A stretch of 64,000 nt of DNA from positions 13,956,240 through 14,020,239 of the forward strand of contig NC_049983.1 in the NCBI RefSeq assembly GCF_000003815.2, given 5' to 3'. The notes under the pieces are model-generated. The model searched no databases. It was given only the letters and a program-made list of their open reading frames with translations, and was not told the DNA's origin. Both the position numbers and the translations under genes were made by a program. This DNA is from Branchiostoma floridae (taxonomy: Eukaryota > Chordata > Leptocardii > Amphioxiformes > Branchiostomatidae). Below, piece after piece: positions 41,681 to 57,500 of this stretch; position 1 is the stretch's first letter, and every line of letters begins with the position of its first letter.

Positions 41681-42065
41681 AAAGTTGAAAACTCATATCT
41701 TGTGAAGAAAACAGTTTTGAAAACGGTTTTCAGATTACAAATTCTTACCAAACGATATTTTTGATGATACAATTTACAAAGTTTCACCTACTATAACACA
41801 CTTTAGCCACGACTAACCCTAACCCTAACCTTAACCCTAACCTAACCCTAACCCTAACCCCAACCCTAACCCCAACCCCAACCCCAACCCCAACCCCAAC
41901 CCCAACCCTAACCCTAACCCTAACCCCAACCCCAACCCTAACCCTAACCCTAACCTCAACCCTAACCCTAACCCTAACCTTTTTGCATGGTCAGTTTGGC
42001 GGCGCTTGAACCCTCATATCTCGAGAAGAAAACACAAGGCTTGAAAACGGTTTTCAGATTACAAC
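41681..42065. repeat. Direct repeats flanking a telomere-like array
   Basis: A block of about 60 bases at 41681-41740 (CTCATATCTTG, AAGAAAACA, then TTGAAAACGGTTTTCAGATT) recurs in the same orientation at about 42005-42065 (CTCATATCTCG, AAGAAAACA, TTGAAAACGGTTTTCAGATT). The telomere-like array lies between them, which suggests a tandemly repeated unit containing the array. Confidence 0.6.
41813..41980. repeat. Interstitial telomere-like array (CCCTAA)n
   Basis: About 28 units of CCCTAA with frequent CCCCAA variants, i.e. TTAGGG and TTGGGG on the other strand. No large chromosome-end sign: genes continue on both sides. Confidence 0.9.
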
Positions 42066-45500: not shown

Positions 45501-48500
45501 ACGTCAGAGTAAAACCAACCACATAGGGGGTAACAACACGCATCTTATGTGACAACGTGAAGAGGTTGGGCTGAATATCACACATGACGACAAACAAGAT
45601 AACACACATGATGGCAATAGTGATAATACACATGATGACATAGGAAATAACGCACATGGCGGGGGACAACCGTGGAAAAGTAAAGCAGGTCCATTAAAAG
45701 TGCTGTACACCAACACAGACCAATTCCCAAACAAGAGGGAGGAACTCAGGTTCATGGTGGCCAGCGATCCAGTGGACTTGATCGCCCTGACCGAGGTTAT
45801 CCCCAAGGCACAGATAAATCCGTTAAAGATATGTACACTAGATATGGAAGGCTACGAGGCCTTTACAAACTTCAACCCGGATGAAAGAAACCTTGGGAAG
45901 AGTGGCACAAGGGGTATTGTCATTTTTGTAAAGAAGTCACTGAACTTGAGTGTACAGGAACTGGACTTTAGTGCAGCCGGATTTCATGAGCAGTTATTTC
46001 TGAAATGTGAACTAGGCAACAAAGAATCACTCATTGTGGGGTGTATATATAGAAGCCCAACCTCTGATCCAACAGACAGTACGACCAGATTATGTGAACT
46101 TTTGTCAAATGTTTGTAAAGAGAAGGCTAAGCACATGGTAATAATGGGAGACTTTAATCTAAAGGAAATTGACTGGGAAGGGAGGACTACAGTTGATGGC
46201 GCACACCCCCATTGCCAGCATTTCCTGGATTGTCTTGATGACAATTTTCTAACCCAGCATGTTGAAGAACCCACCCGACACAGGGTCAACCAGACCCCAT
46301 CCGTACTTGACTTAATCATCACAAATGAACAGCATACAGTTGGGGAACTGCAGTACCTGCCAGGGCTAGGGAAAGGTGACCACTGCTGTCTGAACTTCGT
46401 CATAAACTGCAGTAGGGAGAAACCTCCTAGACCGGAGGCAAGGCGTAATTATAACAAGGGCAATTACCAGAAGGCCAAAGAGGACCTGGGTGGGATTGAC
46501 TGGGATACTGAGATAAGTCACATGGAGGTCTCTCAGGCATGGACAAGGTTCTGCGAACTACTCAATAAGGTGGTGGATGAGTGTATCCCATTGACTAGAG
46601 GAGTCCAAAGACCTAATAAGCTTTACTTGAACAAGCAAGCAATGGAAGTAAAAAACAAGAAAAGGAAGATGTGGTCAAAATGGAAAAGCTCTGGTAGTCT
46701 TGCAGACTTCAGAAGGTATGCAGCAGTAAGAAACTCACTTAGAAGTCTAACACGACAGCTGTGCAGTGAATACGAGCACAGGCTGGTGAGGGATCTTAAG
46801 GACAATCCCAAAAACTTCTGGAGGTACACGAAGTCCCGTCTCAGTACAAGGCCCAAAATAGGTAGTCTGGTCAAACCAGATGGTTCAATGGCACTGACAG
46901 ACTTAGACAAAGCGGAGGTCCTGAACAACTTCTTTGCTAGTGTATTCACGGACGAGAATACATCTAGCATACCCAGAGCTAACGCCAAAACAGTGACTTC
47001 AGTTCTTGACAATTTCGAGATAAGTAGGGAAACTGTAGAAAGGAAGTTATCAGAACTCAACCCAACAAAGTCAGCTGGACCAGACGGTCTTCACTCAAGA
47101 CTTCTGAAGGAACTCGCAAGTGAGCTGTCGTACCCAGTATCAGTTATTTTCAAGAAGTCGCTGGAGGCGGGATGCGTACCAGCCGACTGGAAGACAGCAC
47201 ATATAACTCCGATCCACAAGAAGGGTAGCAGACAAGACCCAGGAAACTACAGACCTGTAAGCTTAACCTCCGTGGTTGTCAAGACACTTGAGTCCATCAT
47301 TAGAGATGCACTCGTCGACCATCTTATGGCAAACGAGTTATTTACAGACGCTCAACATGGGTTCGTACCCAAAAGATCTTGTACCACTCAGCTACTGGTA
47401 GTCATGAACGATTGGTCACAGTGTCTAGAGAGGGGGGAACCAGTGGACAGCATCTACTTAGACTTCAAAAAAGCTTTTGATTCAGTTCCCCACAAGAGGT
47501 TACTCGTCAAGCTGCACTCATATGGGATAAGGGGCCATACACTTAAGTGGATACAGGACTTTCTCAGCAACAGGAGGCAGAAAGTAGTTATCAATGGAGC
47601 GCACTCCTCCTGGCGTAACGTCAAGAGTGGAATCCCGCAGGGAAGTGTTCTGGGTCCTACGTTATTTGTTGTTTTTATAAACGACCTGCCGGAGGTTGTG
47701 ACCAGTGCAGTGAAGATCTTTGCTGACGATAGCAAAATCTACAGACCGATCCTATGCAAGGAGGATCAGGAAGCGCTTCAGCGTGACCTCCAAGCTGTGG
47801 AAAAGTGGTCGGAGGTGTGGCAACTCCCCTTCAACGCTGGGAAATGCAAAGTACTCCACTTGGGAAGAGGCAACCAAAGAGCAGAGTACAGACTGGGTGG
47901 GCTAATTCTGGAAGAAACCAAAGTCGAGAAAGACCTCGGGGTGTCTGTCGACGAGCAGTTAAAGTTCCACGTTAACACCACAGTCTCAGCGCAAAAGGCA
48001 AACCAAATATTAGGCTTGGTAAAAAGAACCTTCAGTAACTTGGATGAAGTAACAGTGCCCCTCCTCTACAAATCGATGGTTCGCCCCCATTTAGAGTATG
48101 CGAACGCTGTTTGGGGGCCGCATTTCAAAGTCGACCAGAACACTGTGGAAAAAGTACAACGTAGAGCAACAAGGCTGGTCCCAACACTCAAGTCCTTTCC
48201 GTATAGTGTTAGGCTGGAGAGTTTGAAGCTACCATCACTCCACTATAGAAGAGCCAGAGGGGATATGATACAAGTCTTTAAGTTCCTCACGGGAAGGGAG
48301 AGGGTTAGTGCACAGAGTTTCTTCACCGAGAGTCAACATCAATCAACTAGAGGGCATCGCTTCAAACTTACGGTGCCACTGGCAAAGTCCTTGGTACGTC
48401 GCCAGTCGTTTGCGGTTCGAGTAGTACAAAATTGGAACTCGCTGCCGGCTGAGGTCGTAGAGGCAGAGTCTGTTAACGCGTTTAAAACGAGGTTGGACTT

Positions 48501-51500
48501 ATGTTGGAGTAAGAAGAGATACCACGATCGTCAGGAGGGTGACTACACAGGCGCAGCCTACTTCACCTAGACATCATCAAGGTATCATCAAGGTAGCTGT
48601 TTGGCTACCAGTTTTCCATGCGTTATAGGGTTAGGCAGCAAGGAGAAGCTTAGATATACCTTTATAGAGGAAAATGTTTCTATACATGTTCTAAAGAAAA
48701 AGCGAGACAGGTAAGATATTTAGAGATGATAAGTTTCTCTCAAACTAAACAACGAAACTAAATATGTCTTCTCATCCCAAGAGGACAGTCTGAGACTAAT
48801 AAGACATTTCTGTTTTGTTGCCCACAGGCTGCTGATACCCTGTTGTTACTTCTCTCCCCGACCCGAGCAACTGATGAGTTAGGGGAGCACTGTCTGACCT
48901 GCCTGTTTGCACAAGGACTCCCTACACCTGTCTTAGTCACACGGGTCTGTTTGTAGCCTCTTTAAAAAAAGCATAAAAGCACAGTCACATTCGTCATAGG
49001 CTTTTCGAGCAGGCTGTGACAGAACAGTCCAACAAGGATCTATAACAGCTTTTCCTAACAATACATCTAAATGTTGTTTGACATATGCACAGTGTCCAAG
49101 AATGCATACATATACTATAGTACCCTCAGTTTTTTTAAGAATGATGACCCCAATTCATTATAGTTTGCTTAACATTTGTCATACGATACCATTTAATGCT
49201 GTACTTAGGACACTTTTAGAACTCTGTAATGTAAGGCAGTACCATAAGATACCAAAGGATAACATTGTGTGATATTGCAACTTAGGTATTTTCTTACCAT
49301 TGCGATAGATATAGAGAAGTTTTGTTTACATACTTGTGTGTTACTCCACAGGGAATTAATAACTTGCCTGTGAAGAAGAGAAATGATGCTAAGAGAAGTG
49401 TTAACAAGGCCATGGAGAGAAGATTTCCTGACGAAAAAGTTCACACACTAGATTCTCAACAGGTAAGGTAACGAAGAAATGAAGGAAAAAGCAAATCAAA
49501 TCAAGATTTTACACATATATTATTCAGAATGAGGCCAAATGTTATTTTCAGAAACACAGTCTTGAGGCTAATATAATGTAGTACATACAAAGATGTTGAA
49601 TTTGACTTTGTAGAATGGAAACAACCAGACCTGACTGGTGTACAGATAGGAGTTTTTCATCTGATCTTTCACAACTTTGGCTTGCCAGGATGCAGCTTTG
49701 GTACTGAGACATGTGACCAATCAGAAGCAGCGTAGACTGAAGCTGCGTGACCACCGGCCGTACCTGCTGGCTCAGAATGTCAGTTACCAAGAGGAAGAGG
49801 AGGTATGCTGGAGTGGAAAAAATAGTATATAACTACACAGTAATAATCAAGAAAAAGCTTCAGAATGTAGTGTAATTGCTATGGCTTCAGCTAACCATCT
49901 AGTTAAAAGTTGACAGTCCATTTGTAACAGATACTTAGGGGTGGCGCCCATCTCCATTTCTGTGACCTTGGGCCACGCATTTGTGCAAGCCACTACGGCA
50001 GGGGCCTAGTCCACTGGTAGTGATGTGTGTTTAACATACTCTTCCTCATTAGTGCTGAGTGCTAAGCAGACAAAGCAGCATGTACAATTTTTAAAGTCTT
50101 TGATGTGACTAGGCCGGGGATCAAACTCCATACCTACTAGTATCGAATACAAGACGAAACCCACTTGGCCATCCAATTAGAATCTGTTGAAATTATATAT
50201 ATTAGAGAACTAACAGAAGTCTTGCAAAAGATTCTATATGTATATGTTGACATACATGGTTACTTTAAAAAATAAAAATAATTTTTTTTATACATTTGTT
50301 CCCCTCTACAGTCCCCTACACATGGGACACTGAAGCTGACAGGCTACTTGAGAGGCTGCCCCCTCTCTGTGAATGGACTGGTCCATCTTCCTGGTTATGG
50401 TGACTTCCAGATGACCCAGATTGACCTTACCCCTGACCCTCACCCCTTGCAGAAACAGACAGACAAGAAGAAGCAAAAAGATGCCATGGTACATACAGAT
50501 AGGTGTTGGCTCAGATGTAGCAACCAGCGGTGTGTGTACATTATACACTGATGTATGAATAGACAACATTACTAGCCTGAGGGCCATCCTCCATAGTGAC
50601 TGCTGGCTCAATCCTTTACTTGGTAACAGGGCTCGAAGTTAACTATGTCCCGATGTCCCGGGGCCACTAAAATTTAGGCCGGGACAACTGAAAAATCTTT
50701 TTGGGACACTTTTGGGACAATAGGAAAATAATCAACGAATCAACATCGGACATTATGTCCGATCTCCCCGCGGCAGGCTTTTAGCTAGCAATGCGTACAG
50801 CCGTACAATATACGGCCTTCGCTAAAAAAATCGCAAAATGTACGCCCTGTTTTTTGGATATACGCCTTTGGTACGCCCTTATTTTCCCCCGGAAACTTCG
50901 CTCAAAGTTCAAAATTCGCCGATTCCGGACGCACCGAGCCGCCATTTTGGGTGATTCTACCTCAAGTCTCGCGCAATCTCGCACTCACTCACATCTCGCG
51001 AATTGCGAGAGTCGCACCCGATTGGCCATTTCGGCGTGACATAGCACGCCCAGGCGCCATTATTGGTGGAATATCTGATATCCCCGCTGTTTTTGCGGGA
51101 AAAATCACGCAGGAAAGCGTAAAAACTTTGATTTGTTTACGAAAACTCGTCGAATGCCTGAAGTCATTGGTGATAAGTACATGTATAGGATTGTTTTGGA
51201 GGTTTTTTTTGCTTGTTTGTCAGTGGAATGTGGGAAAAACAACAGCTAATGTGACGATGACATACTGGGGAGGGGGGCGGTGTCGGCATTGAATTCTTAG
51301 AAAATGTTGAACGGAGGTCGCGATTTTTTCACGGTAACTTGAGATAGTACTTTTGTTGCAGTCTTTATTTCTAAAATATTGATAAATGGATGTTGTTTGT
51401 TGAGAAAATTTCGCTTAATTTGCCCTTGGAACACATCTTTTCTGCTATATATTTTCAATGAATTAAATGTTTGTACACATTTTTCTGTACTGTGTAAAGT

Positions 51501-54500
51501 TAAAACAGTGATGTTACAGGCTACAAGTAACTTTTCAGTGCATTTATTTTCAGCTATGTTCTTAACAGGGTAGATACACAAAAGAAATATAAGATGTACC
51601 TGGCAGTCCTGGCTACACTTTCTCCTCTGTTGGTTTGCAGATTTTCTTGTAGACTTCTTTAGCTTGCTGTTGTTATATATGTAACAGTCAAGTTTCACCT
51701 TTAGGAGTAAGGTTAATTTACTCTCCCTGATTGTATGTATTAACTCATGAAACATTATATTGTAAGGAATCAGTGTTATATTACTTGAAAATTACCTCAT
51801 GTATTCTTTAAGCCATACCCACCTCAAATCAAGAACACATACCTCCCATTCTCAGGACAAAAGTAGTGTTGCAGCAAAGACAAAAATTTGGCTATATTCT
51901 ACTTCAAAATGCAGGAAATAGCATTTCAGAGGCTTTAAATTTCAAAATTTACCGGGGGAGGATACCCCCGGACCCCCCTACAATGCTCGTGCCTTCGGCG
52001 CTCGTTGCGCGGCTCCGCCGCTGAGTGCGGAGAGTACAACACATTACAGATGTACACCCTAAAAAAAATTCCTAGCTAAAAGCCTGCCTCGCGGTTGTCA
52101 GGTGTGCGTACTCTGACTTACAGTTGTTGTAATACATAATTTCTGAAAATAGGGTTGGGACAGTCCATCCTCACTTCGGGACAGTTGAAATTTATTTTTG
52201 GGACAATGCTGGGACAGTAGGGAAAAAAGGTAATTTTGAGGCCTGGGTAACCACAGAGTTAGCAAGCGAAAGGACTGACCCAGTGACCACTGCGGAGGAC
52301 GGTACTCAGGCTACAACATTACTGCTATCAGTACTGTAAGAGCCAGTTCTAGAGTGCTGCAGTTCGTCAACAAGATTAACTGTACAAATCACTGTGGAAT
52401 GGTTTAACTCATGGAAAAATGTTTTTTTCTTGCTTTGGTGTCTTTAGACAGCCATTTATAGAAAACACCTCTCTTTTATTGGTGACATGTTTATTTACAG
52501 TTACTTTAGTATTTTGTTTATGGTAAAACCAAATGTTTTCCATGCCTACTGTAGGACACAGAGTCCCCATCCTCCACATGTATGGAGCAGGATGTGCAGG
52601 TCCTCGCCAGGGCTGACCCCAGCAGACAGGAGTCCCTGCAGGCTGAGGTGGTGCCTGACCCCATGGAGGGGGAACAGACATGGCCCACAGAGGAGGAGAT
52701 CAGGGAAGCTGAGGGTACGGCTGCGCCATCTTCCATTTCTTTAGTATCTCTTTCCTTCTTTCTTTCTTTTCTCCTTTCCTTCTTTTTCTCTAGCTTTGTA
52801 CCATTCTTTCTTTCTTTTTCTTCCTTAGTATCAGTCCATCTTTTTTTACTTTCATCCTCTCATCCCATCCTTGTTTATCAGCTTCATGTTAACATTCCAC
52901 TCCACACCTGCCCATGATGTAACTTAGTTAGCTATGAGAGTCTGTGATTTCAGCTCTTGCCAGTATCATTACCTGAGGCAGCTTTCTGGTCTACATGAAT
53001 TTGATCTGCCTTGCACTTGTACATGAGATCCCACGTTCCCTGTAACTTGTTGACCTTGAACCCTACAGCTGCCTTGAAAGAGAAGATCAAGACGGTGAAG
53101 AAAGTTCCCAAGGGAACCTCAGACTACCAGGCTGCCTGGATTGTGGATAGTGAAGATGAGGGAGACAATGCAGAGGTAGGGTCATGTATGAAGGGACATC
53201 TCATCTTGTTATGATAACAGCATTTATGGTATCTCAAGTACAATTATCAGTCGATAAGATATCAAGTTTTTATTCGTGTTCACACAAACATTTTACACCT
53301 GCCCATGATGTAACTTAGTTAGCTATGAGAGTTTGTGATTTCAACTCTTGCCAGTATCATTTCCTGAGGCAGGTTTCAGGTCTACTTTGATCTATGTATT
53401 CCCATGCTTGTTAATGATCGCTTTATGATTCTTTCAGCTTGTATAGTTTCTGCTATCCTTTCTGTGGATATGATAGATGACTTGGAAAAGAAGTTTGAGA
53501 TTTGATTTTGATGAAAAATCTATACAGGAGGAGTCAGACTCAGACTCAGATGATGATGCCATGATGGAGGCTGTGGAAGAAGAGGAAGATGAAGAGGAGG
53601 CTGGGAGTATTGCTGCTACTGAGGACTATGAGGAGGTGAGTGAGGGAGAAAAGAAAATACAGGGATAGGGGGTAGGTAGGAAATCCAGGAATGATGGTAT
53701 CTTGTAGTCATAACATTTTTTGCATTCAATGCTGAGCTATCCAGAAACTACATGTAAAATCAAATCTGTAAAGTGACCACCTCTACCTATGGATACCCTG
53801 GCCAATGTGACAACTCTTTGGTTGCCCCATAGATAATTCTTCCCATTCACAGGAGCATTAAGAATCCACCTGCCCACATATATAGAGCAGATTTCATTGG
53901 TCTCTTGAGTGGTCTTCTTGGTCTGAGTTTTGACTGTCCATGATATTACTGCTTACATTATTTGATGCCTTAGAAAACTGTTGTAAATTTAAATGTGTTA
54001 AGGCGAATGCCATCAACAAATGCTGTCGATAGCAACAAAAACTGGTAGAAGCTCTGGATGTGTTAGTGTTTGTGATTCCCATTGACACATTTGACACCAT
54101 GACTGTAATGCTGTACCAGATGAGCCTGGCTGGAGAAGACAGAGATGCCAAGTACGATGCAGGGTTTGATGCTGAGGAGGAGGAGGAGATGCTGCAGAAG
54201 TACAAGGACGAGCGGCAGGACCAGATGTTCCCAGATGAGGTGGACACGCCCATGGACGCCTTAGCTAGGATCAGGTTCCAGAAGTAAGCTTTAAGAACTT
54301 AATGGGAAACATTTAGCCTAAATGTTTTTGTTTTATGATTACCACTTTATCACATTGTGTATTGTGTAAAGCTTCTGATGGCAATCATTCCATTTGTCTT
54401 AATATAAAGCCACCTGCCCATGATGTAACTTAGTTAGCTATGAGAGTCTGTGATTTCAGCTCTTGCCAGTATCATTCACTGAGGCAGGTTTTAGGTCTAC

Positions 54501-57500
54501 TATTATTTAGTATGACAGTTTTGTTACAGTCCACTCAGCCAATCTGTGCTCTTATCACATACAGTCATTTTGGTCGTTTTTGTTGCTGTATGAAGTTATT
54601 TCTCTGTTAAATATACATTGTTTGCAGTAGTATGCTTTAAGTGTAGATGCTTTTCTATTCGCCAATACAGAAACCATTTATCTTTCACTTTGATAGGTAC
54701 AGAGGCCTGAAGAGTTTCCGTACGTCCCCCTGGGACCCCAAGGAGAACCTTCCGCTAGACTTCGCCAGGATTTTCCAGTTTGAAAGCTTTAAGCGGACAG
54801 CCAAACGGGTCCTGACTGCAGACAGAGATGACACTGATGCTGCCATGGTAGGGCATGTCATATCATTTTAAATTGCGTCGATGTAGATTAGACATCCAGG
54901 TAATTATAAAAAGATACACCAAAAAGCAGTTACTCAAGCAGCTGGATTCCAAAATCATACCCAGTCGCTTGAGTAACTGCTTCTTGGTGCATTTCACGTT
55001 GTGAAATGTATGTTTTTTGTAGATGTAAAATTTTTGACCTGTTTGGATGTTTGGTTTTACAATCCTGTATTTTCCTCTGTCCGTCACAGCCTGGCTGGTA
55101 CATCACTATTCATGTAGCAAATGTGCCAAAGACATTCATAGGTGAGTCCAAACATTTCCGATGAAAATCTTGGATGATGGGAAGTTATTAAACTGCCTCA
55201 TACTGTGGTTTTATTACATGAAATAATGTGTATTTCTTAGAATTGGCTAAATGCAGCTTTATTACACAATTCATTACCATGTTGTACAGCATAGGGTTGT
55301 TTTAAAACCATGAAACTTAACTTTCCCCATTGTTGTTTTAGAGAGCTACAGCCCCTCCCACCCCCTGGTTGTGTATGGTCTACTGCAGCATGAACAGAAG
55401 GTGGGCACATGTTACAGGTTCTGCTTATATCGTTTATGTTAAATGACATTTGTTTTCTGATCGCACAGTTGTTTGGTTGAACTTACTGTTTAAAATCTCC
55501 TGCAGATGTCAGTGGTGCACTTCCTTGTCAAGAGGCATTCTGGGAACACAGAGCCAATCAAGTCTAAGGTAAGGCATGTTATTTATGTTTTAGCAAGGAA
55601 AGTACATTTCCATGTTTAATATATATGAATGAATGAATGAAGAAGACCTTTATTGTACAGTTTTGCCCAACCGAGCTAAGTATAGGTCACAACAAGTCAA
55701 GATATATACATATAAAAGTATCACAAATCTAGTCTAACACAAAAGTTCAGCTTCTTCTTGCTTCTTGGTAATGGTGAAAATGTAGGACTGTATGGGTTTA
55801 GCTATTGTTGGTTTGTCAAAACGCATGAGAAATATAAACTTGTCAGTTCTACTCATGTGTCTAAAATGAGGGAATCTACATAAAGTTGTAAATCGTAAGA
55901 AGGTTTTTAGCTGTTACAGATATTTCTCCTGTGCAATATCTAATGAAAGGCAACAACACAGGGTTTTGTTTATTTTGTCTTATTTCTGTCTTTATGTTCC
56001 CAATAGGAGAGAATGATCTTCCATGTGGGTTACCGCAGGTTTGCAGCCTGTCCTGTTTACTCCCAACACACTCTGGGCAACAAACACAAGGTATGAACTA
56101 TTCTCTTAGCTCATGTGTGCATGTTAACGATATGAACCTAGTGTGTAGAAACTACATTTAAGCTTAGAATGAAAGCTTGTCTGTGTTAGTATGTTTAAGA
56201 CTGAAAGTTTACTTAAGAAGTAATGTACAGTTGTTGTCTTTTTACCTCATTAAATTTGATAGTAATCTTATCTTACAGATCATTGAAAGCCAGTCAATGC
56301 TGTACAAAACCAAATCTACTTAAAGTCTTGTTGATGTTACACTCTGATAAAGGGAGACTTTCTGTGTATGTTTCAGTTTGAGCGTTTCCTGCGGAGTGAG
56401 GGGACGTCCGTTGCCACGGTGTACGCGCCCATCATGTTCCCTCCTGCCTCCGTCCTCATGTTTAAGGAGTACCCTGATGGTAGGAGACTTCGTCTGTATT
56501 CTGGATACAAATCATGACAGGGCTGTCTCCAGTTTTAGATTTCTGCCCTAATCATTGTTTGGGAGCCCATGTTGTTGATTTTCCTCATTAAACATGTCAA
56601 TTTAAGCTTATGAAAATAGATTTTCAACTGTTTCATGTTAGATTTTGAGGATGGATGGGATAATATTTTTTCTTTCCCAACAAGCAAATTTCCTGGAGAC
56701 AGCATTTGTACCTACCCCAGAAGTTTAGTTTTTTACAATTTGTAAAACAACTCTGGGTCAATGCCAGCTCTAAAGAGTATACTTTTTCGCCTCACATCTG
56801 TCCATTGCAAACTCCTGCCATAGCTTGTTTTGGCATAATTTGGTTTGGTTTAAATGTATTCTTTATCATCTTAAGATGATGGAATGGCCAATCCTTTGGT
56901 AAATCCCAGCTGAACAAAACTCTGACAAAGTATTGAATGCTGGCTAGAATCTTGTGACAACCCTAGCTGTGCAGTGTTGTAAAGCATTTCCGATAAAGCA
57001 ACACTCTTGTCCAAAGATAGTATATTGTACATGTATGTTGAAGTTGAAGTTCTAACACCCAGTGTTATGACATGTCCTGACCTGTTGAAGGTTCCCAGTC
57101 TCTGGTGGCGACAGGTTCCCTCCTGAGTGTTAACCCAGACCGTGTGGTCGCCAAGCGGATCGTACTGAGCGGCCATCCCTTCAAGATCAACAGGAGGCTG
57201 GCAGTGGTTAGATACATGTTCTTCAACAGAGGTAAGTTTCACAATCAACATCAAAACTACATGAAGTTTATCATCAACTTCCGTGCAGAGTTTGTGTGTT
57301 AGGCACTAGTAGTGTACTGTTTTAGATGGATGAAAGGTAATGGCAATTTTTTATTAAATGACAAGTCAATTATTTTTCTGCCATGATGACACAGTTAAAA
57401 GGAACAGGAAATTCAAACTGCACTTTAGTTTATGGGTAAAAGATTTTTTTCTTGAAGCTACTGGTACAAATGCTGTCACTTCTACTCTATATGGCACTCT

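Follow-up and report, generated by a model that had tools for sequence, protein, structure and literature searches.

The TSR1 gene of the lancelet Branchiostoma floridae carries one short sequence in three of its introns, and the question raised by this locus is what kind of element the three copies represent and whether they belong to the SNORD91 family of box C/D snoRNAs, a name that had been given to them on account of the host gene. The window considered here is the whole stretch of DNA that was analyzed, 64,000 nucleotides of contig NC_049983.1, and all positions refer to it (Table 1).

The host gene and the intron numbers 9, 10, and 12 given in the preliminary description are borne out by a hand-built model of 21 coding exons, in which all 20 introns are of the GT-AG type and the frame is open. 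The protein model of 808 amino acids matches human TSR1 with an E value of 1.5e-291 over model residues 7-803, and it contains the Pfam domains RIBIOP_C, Tsr1_G-like, and AARP2CN. Intron 4 of the gene holds a stop-free frame of 1005 amino acids (45553-48570, + strand, the sense direction of the host) with the Pfam domains RVT_1, Exo_endo_phos_2, and Exo_endo_phos (reverse transcriptase and endonuclease), that is, a LINE-like element. Intron 8 has inverted 45-nt arms (50573-50617 and 52269-52313, 76% complementary and 1651 nt apart), which enclose a further inverted pair at 50766-50792 and 52068-52094 and perhaps belong to an inserted mobile element. Upstream of TSR1, at 41814-41979 on the + strand, there are CCCTAA-like and CCCCAA-like units that look like telomere repeats by eye.

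Table 1. Positions of TSR1 and of the features of its three intronic copies in the window.
Feature	Position	Strand	Basis
TSR1 coding part, 21 exons, 808 aa	42561..58018	+	hand-built exon model
TSR1 intron 9, holds copy 1	52715..53068	+	exon model
TSR1 intron 10, holds copy 2	53176..53527	+	exon model
TSR1 intron 12, holds copy 3	54284..54696	+	exon model
Repeat copies	copy 1 52905-53003; copy 2 53296-53394; copy 3 54411-54509	+	repeat search
Copy 1, C/D snoRNA-like element	52906..52983	+	repeat search, box/stem filter
Copy 2, C/D snoRNA-like element	53297..53374	+	repeat search, box/stem filter
Copy 3, C/D snoRNA-like element	54412..54489	+	repeat search, box/stem filter
Box C	copy 1 52914..52920; copy 2 53305-53311; copy 3 54420-54426	+	box/stem filter
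Box D CTGA	copy 1 52973..52976; copy 2 53364-53367; copy 3 54479-54482	+	box/stem filter
Copy 1 D'-like ATGA, weak	52934..52937	+	reading of sequence
Copy 1 C'-like GTGATTT, weak	52944..52950	+	reading of sequence
Copy 1 putative guide region before box D	52951..52972	+	sequence
Shared 3' extension TTT..GGTCTAC, adjoining the stem	copy 1 52983-52994; copy 2 53374-53385; copy 3 54489-54500	+	intron alignment

A repeat search of the region 50000-56500 yields one family of three direct copies of 99 nt, with 90% and 92% identity between the outer copies and the middle copy. In an ungapped comparison of the 74-nt core, each outer copy agrees with the middle copy at 70/74 positions, and a fourth copy is absent from the whole 64-kb window, in which the next best place reaches 38/74 on the + strand and 35/74 on the − strand. 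The pairwise differences over 94 nt number 8, 9, and 7, all of them substitutions with zero indels, and the three copies are equally long. Positions 38, 49, 67, and 68 distinguish the copies from one another. Outside the copies, the identity is 22-27% in the 60 bases upstream and 23-37% in the 60 bases downstream of the 94-nt block. Alignment of the three introns shows that the common block runs from CACCTGCCC to GGTCTAC and that its surroundings align poorly; its 5' limit is the 5' side of the terminal stem described below, and its 3' limit lies about 12 nt beyond the 3' side of that stem. The three copies share these roughly 12 nt beside the stem but not the flanks. The repeat search and the exon model thus agree with the earlier proposal of three copies of one element, each in the sense direction and one per intron.

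Each copy contains a box C, a box D, and a terminal stem, as had been read from the letters and as a box/stem filter finds in 3/3 copies. Box C is ATGATGT in all three, with one mismatch to RTGATGA (RUGAUGA), and the terminal stem measures 7 bp in two copies (2 and 3) and 5 bp in copy 1, whose sixth pair is lost to a C at position 78 (52982). Box C, the CTGA of box D, the stem, and the sense intronic placement, which are among the marks of a C/D snoRNA, are present in every copy. In the middle of the copies, ATGA and GTGATTT could be boxes D' and C', both of them weak. The folding energies of copies 1, 2, and 3 are ordinary (z of −0.02, −0.99, and −1.42, respectively), a point that tells little against a C/D snoRNA.

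The filter tolerates a single mismatch in box C, provided that TGAT is kept, and requires a CTGA and a stem of at least 5 bp. In the window it matches three places on the + strand, namely the copies, and 0 on the − strand, and among the 20 TSR1 introns it gives one match each in introns 9, 10, and 12 and none in the other 17. First-order Markov sequences give a mean of 1.35 matches per strand (range 0-4 in 20 runs), with three or more matches in 3/20 runs, so that the motif count alone is unremarkable. What goes beyond chance is that one sequence of 74-94 nt is found three times, each time in the sense direction within a TSR1 intron. The ease with which such matches arise, about 1.35 per strand per window, would suit a dispersed repeat that has acquired its boxes by chance and is no RNA gene. 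Such an origin is nevertheless highly improbable, because within the window the copies are found only in TSR1 introns and only in the sense direction, with none other in the 64 kb.

The preliminary description had proposed a covariance search with the SNORD91 family, and no Rfam model reaches its gathering score anywhere in the window. Up to an E value of 10, 12 of the 18 listed matches overlap a copy (10 on copy 2, 2 on copy 3, and 0 on copy 1), and 11 of these 12 are to C/D snoRNA models; the matches on the copies have E values of 0.38 and up, all of them below gathering. The models of SNORD70, SNORD72, SNORD47, SNORD12, SNORD24, and SNORD29 match copy 2 weakly, with 19.2-23.7 bits, that of SNORD72 matching copy 3 weakly as well, and the gathering scores of these six families, 41-50, lie far above the bits of the copies. 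Among the matches listed up to an E value of 10, none bears the name SNORD91. Rfam models, by whatever name, do detect human SNORD91A and SNORD91B according to one paper.

As judged from their sequence, the copies are very probably intron-encoded box C/D guide RNAs. This prediction draws on the three boxed and stemmed copies that lie sense in TSR1 introns, on the limits of the common block near the stem, on the restriction of the filter matches to introns 9, 10, and 12 among 20, and on the dominance of C/D models among the weak Rfam matches. It draws also on the host, since ribosome-biogenesis genes are the usual hosts of snoRNAs. A C/D pair in chicken TSR1, listed in the survey cited below, points in the same direction. 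Counted against the prediction are the lack of a gathering-score Rfam match, the lack of an antisense match above shuffles in the scans described below, the weakness of D' and C', and the remoteness of box D from the splice site in two of the copies. The distance from box D to the 3' splice site is 92 nt in copy 1, 160 nt in copy 2, and 214 nt in copy 3, and the last two values exceed the spacing that is usual for mammalian intronic C/D snoRNAs.

Established snoRNA biology suggests how such RNAs would be made and used. Exonucleases would trim the spliced TSR1 introns back to the terminal stem of each copy, and the trimmed RNAs would assemble with the C/D proteins SNU13, NOP56, NOP58, and fibrillarin and guide the 2'-O-methylation of one target base, the one that pairs with the A five before box D. 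By the box-D-plus-five rule, the methylated base is the partner of the fifth one before box D, which is an A in 3/3 copies. As there are no indels and the fifth base is the same, all three copies point to the same base, a U. It had been suggested that the varied bases before box D might shift or weaken the methylated position in one copy. Substitutions do exist there (positions 67-68 are AC, TC, and CA in copies 1, 2, and 3, respectively) and may weaken the duplex at its edge, but the predicted position cannot shift between copies of equal length. If all three copies guide the same base, their repetition may serve dosage or backup, as we propose.

The guides were compared with approximate human rRNA and snRNA sequences, the 28S being without most of the expansion segments. 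A rough check, which extends to the 18S and 28S, is their agreement of 69-90% with fetched eukaryote rRNA in the aligned stretches (rows longer than 100 nt); the 5.8S and snRNAs give no aligned row of that length. In a scan anchored on the boxes, the D' side scores 17.5, which 15/60 shuffles reach, and the D sides of copies 1-3 score 14.0, 17.0, and 16.5, which are reached by 58/60, 33/60, and 38/60 shuffles. The same test gives 24 for SNORD70, 24.5 for SNORD72, 24 for SNORD24, and 25.5 for SNORD28 (0/60 shuffles each) and 22.5 for SNORD47 (1/60), controls that are flattered by box positions preselected for an earlier good score. Four of six Rfam consensus guides reach 22.5-24.5 on the approximate human rRNA, compared to 14.0-17.5 for the guides of the copies, and the other two, SNORD12 and SNORD29, score 19.5 and 16.5, which means that the scan can miss a true guide. 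The complementarity to rRNA before box D that the preliminary description anticipated does not rise above shuffles in the approximate human rRNA, in a scan that missed or scored low two of its six controls.

Unanchored scans of the approximate human sequences give best scores of 24.0, 20.5, and 19.5 for the whole copies 1-3. The 24.0 of copy 1 comes from a pairing with the 28S stretch GATCTTGGTGGTAGT that spans box D and the stem, and it was rejected. The interiors (positions 11-70) score 19.5, 20.0, and 19.5, values that are reached by 40/40, 37/40, and 40/40 shuffles of the interior of copy 1, the average of these shuffles being 23.0. The unanchored scan of fetched rRNA covered 14 stretches of contigs L001-L005, L007, and L008, with L006 and L009-L011 left out. 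A pairing with positions 1366-1389 of the large-subunit rRNA of L001, the region of the GATCTTGGTGGTAGT stretch, scores 26.0-27.5 for all three copies; it ends five bases before box D and was discarded, 4/8, 4/8, and 5/8 shuffles reaching the scores. In the anchored scan of fetched rRNA, the D' side scores 17.0 and the D sides 22.5, 18.5, and 18.5 (copies 1-3), the controls SNORD70, SNORD72, SNORD47, and SNORD24 giving 23.0, 25.5, 18.5, and 24. The 22.5 of copy 1, a raw score, is due to positions 20-31 of the small-subunit rRNA of L001, a divergent gene with the lowest of the four full small-subunit scores, and was set aside.

When a bulge is allowed, the D' side pairs with 18S GCTAACTAGTTAC through 13 pairs, 12 of them standard, and one bulge, with a score of 20.5 that 3/40 shuffles reach. 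Two bases of this pairing belong to box C, and when they are left out a different site takes the lead, at 17.5 (11/40 shuffles), so that we regard the pairing as a lead only. The D side of copy 1 favours an 18S site at 18.0 (12/40 shuffles). The 28S 3' end GGAACGATACGGCAG, paired with the D side through one bulge and one mismatch, scores 18.0 in copy 2 and 17.5 in copy 3, and this is not evidence, as 17/40 and 25/40 shuffles do as well; the controls SNORD24 and SNORD47 score 24 and 22.5 in this test, with 1/40 shuffles each. Two further candidates were rejected, namely the ungapped 18S pairing of the D' side with GTTGATTAAGT (17.5, reached by 15/60 shuffles) and a pairing with U6 of the human SNORD91A fragment discussed below, a partial sequence (19.5, reached by 16/60).

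The lack of an rRNA target in the scans of approximate human rRNA would be expected if the copies acted mainly in cis on the splicing of TSR1, or guided a non-ribosomal RNA, and the conservation of the roughly 12 nt beside the stem would fit with this. A precedent is human SNORD2, which is reported to act on its own host intron. However, the guides pair with the TSR1 pre-mRNA no better than shuffled guides do (the scores are reached by 14/20 shuffles for the D' side and by 14/20, 5/20, and 17/20 for copies 1, 2, and 3), and we consider such a role improbable.

As for the family, a chicken survey (PMC2653536) places two copies of HBII-296 (SNORD91) in introns 8 and 11 of TSR1 and gives them a 5' guide of 14 nt against 28S G4073, and human SNORD91A/B are listed for 28S Gm4618 (PMC5597630). 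The copies resemble vertebrate SNORD91A/B (HBII-296) in the TSR1 host, in the presence of more than one copy in different introns, and in the box C/D kind, and they differ in number, three in B. floridae versus two in chicken. The human 28S stretch around Gm4618 was taken in its presumed form. On this human-form site, from which that of B. floridae may differ, the D and D' sides of the copies reach anchored scores of 5-7.5 at best, compared to 24.5 for the control, the Rfam consensus of SNORD72, which is listed for the neighbouring Um4620. To the extent that the human-form site allows a test, the guide therefore speaks against membership in SNORD91. Positions 34-47 of the copies do pair with the Gm4618 site, with scores of 17 (copies 1 and 3) and 15.5 (copy 2) and, by reading, 13/14 pairs in copy 1, four of them G-U; this pairing was rejected, as it overlaps the C' element and is not followed by a box D or D'. 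The sequence itself gives no better support for the name: a 32-nt fragment of human SNORD91A printed in PMC9404758 gives a score of 9 with every copy, within the range of 6-13 that it gives with six other C/D families, so that this part of the RNA is no closer to the copies than to unrelated C/D snoRNAs. The name SNORD91 is thus not upheld. Regarding the proposed conservation of the host-guest link, the shared TSR1 host and the use of several of its introns, in chicken as well, find support, and a conserved guest does not.

The copies might still be true orthologues of SNORD91, with descent and host conserved and with a guide that drifted or was re-aimed, or a 28S site that changed too. The same host and the separate introns, as reported for chicken, are consistent with such descent, and so is the variability of the target: only one of seven fetched eukaryote loci, contig L005, is near the presumed human form of the Gm4618 stretch (35/37), the others reaching 20-23/37 at best, which indicates that its letters can vary freely. 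The mark is common to chicken and human, and the lancelet probably has the human-form site. Neither guide side fits that site, however, and the copies show no excess similarity to the SNORD91A fragment, which amounts to 32 nt only; we judge orthology to be rather unlikely. An independent arrival, in which an unrelated C/D snoRNA entered TSR1 in the lineage of B. floridae and then spread between introns, has close to an even chance. It would account for a guide unlike that of SNORD91 in the tests possible, and the three copies themselves make duplication from intron to intron evident, but a source copy outside TSR1 is lacking within the 64-kb window. Our best reading is that the copies form an unnamed C/D snoRNA family, which shares with SNORD91 the host gene and not a demonstrable guide.

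With agreement in the host but, to the extent tested, not in the guide, naming such an RNA after its host gene alone seems unreliable at this evolutionary distance. A broader scenario, which we regard as rather unlikely, is that TSR1 is a long-standing snoRNA-bearing gene of chordates in which the place in the host was kept and the guide replaced or re-aimed to a site that vertebrates lack, with three redundant copies. A target found in the rRNA of the species itself would show if the guide evolves apart from its host, and if the gain or loss of an rRNA mark took place close to the origin of the vertebrates. A small-RNA study exists for another lancelet, Branchiostoma lanceolatum (PMC6396948). 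Among the literature matches listed, no title or beginning of an abstract deals with snoRNAs of lancelet TSR1, which is no proof of absence.

It is worth mentioning two observations on the fetched contigs. All eight of L001-L008 are filed as bacterial MAGs and carry eukaryote large-subunit rRNA. L011 (NZ_CP050525.1) is filed as an Acinetobacter plasmid and has a length of 1764 nt; it aligns to the approximate human 18S at 1735/1869 positions, contains GCTAACTAG, and looks like eukaryote contamination.
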